From NCBI GenBank assembly GCA_037951105.1, contig JBAMJV010001386.1, positions 1 to 64,000 on the forward strand: a stretch of 64,000 nt of DNA, read 5' to 3'. The notes beneath the pieces are model-generated. The model ran no database searches, was not told where the DNA came from, and worked only from the letters and a program-made list of their open reading frames with translations. Positions 13,016-42,880 of the stretch are shown here, one piece after another (position 1 is the stretch's first letter; every line of letters begins with the position of its first letter). The translations under genes and the position numbers were made by a program. This DNA is from Echinarachnius parma. Lineage: Eukaryota > Echinodermata > Echinoidea > Clypeasteroida > Echinarachniidae.

Positions 13016-13354
13016 TCACCTATGACTATCCTCTATAGATCGTCTACTCGGTTCCGTAAATTTCCGTAACCGTTTTTCTCGGTTCCGGAGCGCCTCGTCC
13101 TCTCGGACCACCTCTTCGAAGAGTTCGTTGAACCTGTTCTCGTCCTTCCGAATTCGGTCGTCCGTTTCCGCTTGATAGAAAAAGAAAAGCGCCGATTTGT
13201 GATCGGGTTTGTTCCTTTGCGCTTTTCTCTGCTCGCCGTTGCCTTTGAACCCGAGCAACCAGCCCGGATGTTGGAACACGTGGTACTCGTTGTACCGCTT
13301 GTGCGAGAGCGTCTCTGAAAACGAGCACACGATCCCCCTTTCTTTCCGCCTCTT
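13016..13354 (-). CDS. fgf8/17/18: FGF terminal coding exon 5 (signature, last trefoil strands, charged tail)
   Basis: Starts after the acceptor ttattctacag in phase 0 and runs 112 codons to TGA at 13018-13016. It begins with a polybasic loop KRRKERG, followed by the family signature C131-S-F133-S-E135 with Y142 six residues on. Next come YNEY, PGWLLGFKGNG, RNKPDHKSALFFFY and a 49-residue tail rich in Glu, Arg, Lys and Asp that looks helical. The HKSALFF segment matches the last trefoil strands. The tail has no match I recognise in vertebrate FGF8. A longer open frame in another phase over the same DNA is a shadow. Confidence 0.93.
   Translation of the reverse strand, partial: KRRKERGIVCSFSETLSHKRYNEYHVFQHPGWLLGFKGNGEQRKAQRNKPDHKSALFFFYQAETDDRIRKDENRFNELFEEVVREDEALRNREKRLRKFTEPSRRSIEDSHR

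Positions 13355-42880: not shown

Follow-up and report, generated by a model that had tools for sequence, protein, structure and literature searches.

According to three accounts, sea urchins have one known FGF (PMC3420111, PMC4549668, PMC8180256). Its assignment to a subfamily was described as not possible (PMC3420111), and work on the sea-urchin skeleton and muscle placed this one ligand beside two receptors (PMC4549668). The sea cucumber genome paper lists one FGF each for sea cucumber, sea urchin and sea star, called "fgf8" in its text and "FGF9" in a legend, and infers from the occurrence of one FGF in three echinoderms that the family has contracted (PMC5638244); a second FGF has been reported in sea cucumber (PMC9890533). 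For the brittle star Amphiura filiformis, two FGF ligands were described, one of which (Afi-fgf8/17/18, fgfl) carries the name fgf8/17/18 and falls within an echinoderm group in the trees of that study (PMC8180256). An echinoderm FGF8/17/18 is thus not new, and as the brittle-star sequence lies inside an echinoderm group, sea-urchin relatives may already be in databases. The hemichordate Ptychodera flava, which has five FGF ligands in total, provides another ambulacrarian member of the subfamily, and its fgf8/17/18 was tied to mesoderm induction (PMC6091094); outside the deuterostome lineages named so far, the subfamily was reported in annelids, molluscs and lophophorates (PMC8224027, PMC8180254). 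A second, FGF8/17/18-type FGF of an echinoid was not met among the literature matches listed.

The DNA analyzed here (the window, 64,000 nucleotides) carries on its minus strand five exons that together encode a predicted FGF of this type (Table 1). When rebuilt from the raw sequence, the joined exons comprised 702 nt, that is, 233 codons and a stop. The outgoing phases of exons 1 to 4 are 2, 0, 1, and 0, and the four introns (462, 2385, 20638, and 5678 nt, respectively) are all of the GT-AG type. Coordinates, exon lengths, phases, the four junctions and the stop after 233 codons, as given in the original prediction, were thereby reproduced exactly. The same prediction had called the gene complete, which holds insofar as the five exons chain in phase to a stop codon; completeness itself is a prediction only.

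Table 1. Positions, strand and description of the exons of the predicted gene and of the neighboring gene recognised (window coordinates unless a contig is given).
Exon 1	42880-42852	-	29 nt; start codon, first 9 codons and 2 nt (MQVRQSTAT+L); least secure part of the model
Exon 2	42389-42353	-	37 nt; predicted signal-peptide core (LLQFLLWCLSIQ)
Exon 3	39967-39775	-	193 nt; N-terminus of the mature protein with the first FGF strands (..HNKASGKYVRIVDRSHIDAKAEEEDPD); alignable with FGF8 and FGF18
Exon 4	19136-19033	-	104 nt; middle FGF exon (..IQGNSSKYYLCVNSKGEFVAR)
Exon 5	13354-13016	-	339 nt including TGA; FGF domain (C-terminal half) and charged tail of ~50 residues
Whole predicted FGF8/17/18-type gene	13016..42880	-	233 aa
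DHX9-like RNA helicase gene	C1385:74458-112361 (beyond the window)	same strand as the FGF gene, upstream	one exon matched best by the solved structure 3llm

The individual exons differ in how they were obtained. Exons 3 and 5 could be read directly on the minus strand. For exon 4, the region between them was scanned for a phase-fitting AG..GT segment with the FGF middle-exon motif, entered in phase 1 and left in phase 0; this yielded two candidates sharing one acceptor, of which the longer was preferred to 19136-19042 because its donor is the consensus GTAAGT. Exon 2 was one of 10 candidates compatible with the 233 codons originally predicted and was selected on its splice sites and hydrophobic core. 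For exon 1, 16 candidates had an allowed donor; the one selected begins at the end coordinate of the original prediction, and its reading frame is open upstream to 43237. It is the least certain part of the model, resting on one middling donor and a plausible start.

That the exons encode an FGF was evident from the match of the joined protein to the Pfam FGF domain (PF00167; residues 58-178), which scored 83.7 bits (cut-off 24; 1.4e-23) and bore out the FGF motifs noted originally, and from its match to FGF8 in the PDB (5.4e-16). The genome (1.2 Gb in 14,790 contigs) was searched in six frames with the same Pfam model, accepting E-values up to 10. Five exon matches were among the candidates scored: two belonged to the gene described here, two to a second FGF gene on contig C52, and one, weak and interrupted by stops, lay on C992. 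Exon 5 was the second best of the five (E 3.7e-5), and exon 4 the fourth best (E 0.267, under the curated cut-off).

The splice sites were ranked with a simple frequency-based score against all 3,829 GTs and 3,054 AGs of the strand. Among donors, that of exon 2 ranked first, followed by those of exon 4 (5th), exon 3 (8th), and exon 1 (CCT, then GTAAGA; 153rd); among acceptors, exon 2 ranked 3rd, exon 5 7th, exon 4 26th, and exon 3 106th. The weakest sites are therefore the donor of exon 1 and the acceptor of exon 3, both of which are middling. In vertebrate FGF8/17/18 genes, the signal peptide is encoded by two small exons, with a phase-0 junction just behind. The same arrangement is predicted here, with the signal peptide split over 29 and 37 nt and the second junction, in phase 0, following immediately; the signal peptide would have 22 residues and end in Q at this junction, as in the vertebrate genes. 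Exon 2 was also scored for its likeness to the corresponding segments of the human FGF8, 17, and 18 signal peptides, in competition with every AG..GT segment in the window, on either strand, that measures 31-49 nt, fits the phase and contains no stop. Exon 2 topped these 1,245 candidates with a score of 32, the next best reaching 21, and when only the 110 candidates within 10 kb upstream of exon 3 were considered, the next best score was 15. When the residues of exon 2 were shuffled 20,000 times, a score of 32 was reached 21 times; hydrophobicity alone is therefore insufficient to explain the match. The exon limits of vertebrate FGF8 were not found in the literature searched, PMC7600612 and PMC12700623 included.

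The only neighboring protein gene recognised when the ORF lists for the whole 127,571-base contig, window included, were inspected by eye was a DHX9-like helicase (Table 1); the Pfam matches of two of its exons were below cut-off, and the exon for the N-terminal dsRNA-binding part was weak. In these lists, we recognised no gene order in common with vertebrate FGF8/17/18. Within intron 3, on the opposite (plus) strand, an open frame of 138 codons (26774-27187) starts with ATG followed by a signal-peptide-like stretch; it has no Pfam match and may be due to chance. A dispersed repeat is present in two copies that are 97-98% identical (34733-35085 and 57092-57454), and similar copies, judged by their translations, seem to lie elsewhere farther along this contig. 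A tRNA-like match on the minus strand (46269-46341; 30.2 bits against an Rfam threshold of 29, E 0.029) may be a repeat derived from a tRNA. Long simple repeats, of the CA/TG and trinucleotide kinds, were found in an intron (36500-36900) and in both flanks (8430-8900 and 62250-62600), and beyond the window the contig contains a reverse transcriptase frame of 519 codons (C1385:116511-118067, minus strand; Pfam RVT_1, 1.4e-36), which by eye belongs to an element of the non-LTR type.

The class of the host was approached via its mitochondrial DNA and its tektins. A mitochondrial contig of 19,741 bases (C14600) contains, in this order along the coding strand, nad1, nad2, cox1, trnR, nad4L, cox2, atp6, cox3, nad3, nad4, nad5, nad6 (on the other strand), and cob, with trnE, T, Q, L, A, V, D, Y, and L between cob and nad1; the gene names were read from the translations, and three were checked against Pfam. 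This is the order of echinoids and holothuroids. Translation with the echinoderm code (table 9) outscored table 5 for cox1 (by 13.4 bits) and for two domains each of nad5 (8.1 and 12.2) and nad4 (3.6 and 3.7); for cox1, table 14 tied with table 9, and table 4 was lower by 2.4 bits. Beyond 15 kb, pieces of nad6, nad5, nad4, and cob are repeated in broken form, much like the over-long assembly of a circular molecule. Three tektin exons were identical to chains of structure 8snb, from sea urchin sperm, at 114 of 123, 114 of 123, and 78 of 95 residues; the first two, compared with mammalian chains, reached 69 and 72 of 121. A fourth tektin exon, from a relative of Tektin-3, had no close match in 8snb and is uninformative as to class. 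The host is thus most likely an echinoid, judging from these sequences, another echinoderm class being less probable. Three contigs (C3077, C6674, and C5396) carry one and the same tektin exon at an identical score, which suggests uncollapsed haplotypes, so that 1.2 Gb may overstate the haploid genome size.

The second FGF gene (C52:341170-341763) was the one other gene among the candidates scored in the genome-wide Pfam search. Two of its exons were seen, including a similar middle exon (by eye), whereas a search of the adjoining stretch did not reveal its first coding exon. Among solved structures, it is nearest to FGF20 (5.6e-14) and FGF9 (7.1e-13), and it is probably the counterpart of sea-urchin FGFA, as far as can be told from sequence; in the tree it received no supported subfamily placement. 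Additional genome searches were conducted with single queries. Exon 5 retrieved itself and a single weak, stop-containing place (E 3.38), human FGF9 retrieved two places in the C52 gene and three weak ones, and human FGF8 retrieved one weak place with stops. No convincing third FGF gene was found among the 4 to 6 candidates scored per search. With so few candidates scored, third copies are only weakly excluded, and the sensitivity of this test was further limited because the human FGF8 query, consisting of the core of that protein, failed to retrieve the window gene.

Which FGF subfamily the gene belongs to was addressed first by comparison with known proteins. The best solved relatives of the window protein are FGF8 (61.8 bits) and FGF18 (54.3 bits), with all remaining FGFs at or below 44.2. 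Two features distinguish the FGF8 subfamily according to PMC3996155, a disulfide (Cys109-Cys127 in FGF18) and a beta4-beta5 loop that is longer by one residue. Both equivalent cysteines are present in the window protein (in YYLC and IVC), the first of which is not exclusive, as it also occurs in the C52 FGF and in human FGF19 and FGF23. In contrast, the extra loop residue of the mammalian proteins is absent, leaving a one-residue gap in the alignment with FGF8 and FGF18, which is in keeping with the 104 nt of exon 4. About 104 nt is the usual length of the middle exon in FGF genes. The original prediction had emphasized that this exon measures exactly 104 nt; the length is right, and it is not a mark of FGF8, because FGF8 and FGF18 have one residue more at this point (PMC3996155). 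The NYT sequon at the position of FGF18 Asn137 is also missing from the aligned window protein. Identity to human FGF8/17/18 over the core amounts to just 26-28%, and the C-terminal charged tail is a different one. Phe32 and Val36 of FGF8b contact domain D3 of the receptor; the sequence TFPDLNV in exon 3 has its valine at F+5, compared with F+4 in FGF8b, in a part where the alignment is unreliable. Before the second cysteine, and thus between the two FGF8-type cysteines, the window protein differs from the vertebrate ones by the basic stretch RKRRKER, encoded across the junction of exons 4 and 5 (19033; 13354 to about 13330). The RKRR within it looks like a furin site; if it were cut, the halves would remain linked by the predicted disulfide.

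The subfamily was then examined by phylogeny, for which all 22 human FGFs except FGF11 and FGF14, hence 20, served as references. The window protein joined human FGF8/17/18 with support of 98/98, a placement retained when only the core was used (93/97) and when the second FGF of the genome was added (95/95). Grouping with FGF9/16/20 was rejected in two trees (AU test, p 0.006 and 0.009). The original prediction had inferred the FGF8/17/18 subfamily, had proposed a phylogeny as its check, and had named FGF9/16/20 as an alternative; run against human FGFs, the three trees supported the inference, and that alternative was rejected in the two trees just named. The end branch of the window protein is very long (2.4-2.8 changes per site, accompanied by long-branch warnings of the program), and a simulation of long-branch attraction was therefore run, in which a branch of 2.6 was attached to the stem of FGF9, FGF1, FGF7, or FGF8 (25 alignments per attachment). 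From the FGF9, FGF1, and FGF7 stems, not one of 75 alignments led to a false join with FGF8/17/18, and from the FGF8 stem, all 25 were recovered with FGF8/17/18. As one and the same model both made and read the data, this is a lenient control.

These results bear on the main alternative, namely that the gene is a fast-evolving ambulacrarian FGF of another subfamily or of none, be it FGF1/2-like or lineage-specific like the hemichordate fgfa-d, which was drawn to FGF8/17/18 because both branches are long. Besides the length of this branch, the missing loop residue is in line with such an origin, as is the core identity to FGF2 (26.0%), which equals that to FGF18. In the core tree, the groupings with FGF1/2 (p 0.068) and FGF7/10/22 (p 0.056) stayed above formal rejection. 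Moreover, when the window protein was removed, the C52 FGF, itself long-branched, joined FGF8/17/18 in the best tree without support (60/38), and a pull of this clade on long rows is therefore possible in real data. Against this alternative speak the simulated alignments, within the limits of a shared model, the fact that the window protein kept its place at 95/95 next to the C52 FGF, the ranking of FGF8 and FGF18 as its top two solved relatives, and a signal peptide split like that of FGF8/17/18. We regard an origin outside FGF8/17/18 as unlikely, if deserving of some weight. The analysis supports the reading that the predicted gene is of the FGF8/17/18 type by descent, divergent, and devoid of one mammalian mark.

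A pseudogene or unexpressed relic would be consistent with the divergent sequence and with the lack of a polyadenylation hexamer (AATAAA or ATTAAA) in the 900 bases past the stop. Such a relic would have had to retain 233 codons open across five exons without a frameshift or internal stop, good splice sites at most junctions, and an FGF domain far over the cut-off, all of which renders it very improbable. That the gene is instead the known single FGF of sea urchins, an echinoderm FGF ligand named FGFA or FGF9/16/20 (PMC8180256, PMC4549668), is hardly credible, given that the FGF9/16/20 placement was rejected and that the C52 gene, closer to FGF20 and FGF9, is the better candidate for FGFA, even if its own place in the tree lacks support.

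We thus consider it quite probable that the window contains an intact protein-coding gene of the FGF8/17/18 group in the genome of an echinoderm, most likely an echinoid. As judged from the family, its product would be secreted by means of the signal peptide encoded by the two tiny exons, would adopt the beta-trefoil fold of FGFs, and would bind heparan sulfate and an FGF receptor tyrosine kinase on neighboring cells, the activated receptor signaling through MAPK/ERK during development.

The wider proposition, that an echinoid keeps two FGF ligands and that the one of the FGF8/17/18 type escaped notice on account of its short exons, its spread over 30 kb, and its divergence, appears to us evenly balanced between right and wrong. 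If it is true, the single FGF so often ascribed to sea urchins reflects a failure of detection, and the two-exon signal peptide of FGF8/17/18 is older than the split between chordates and ambulacrarians. Provided that the split signal peptide is ancestral, the exon layout could serve as a marker of orthology for genes whose sequences have diverged too far to be placed by trees. A second ligand, of the FGF8/17/18 type, would alter the wiring assumed for the sea-urchin skeleton and muscle, and would constitute a directly testable target for knock-down.
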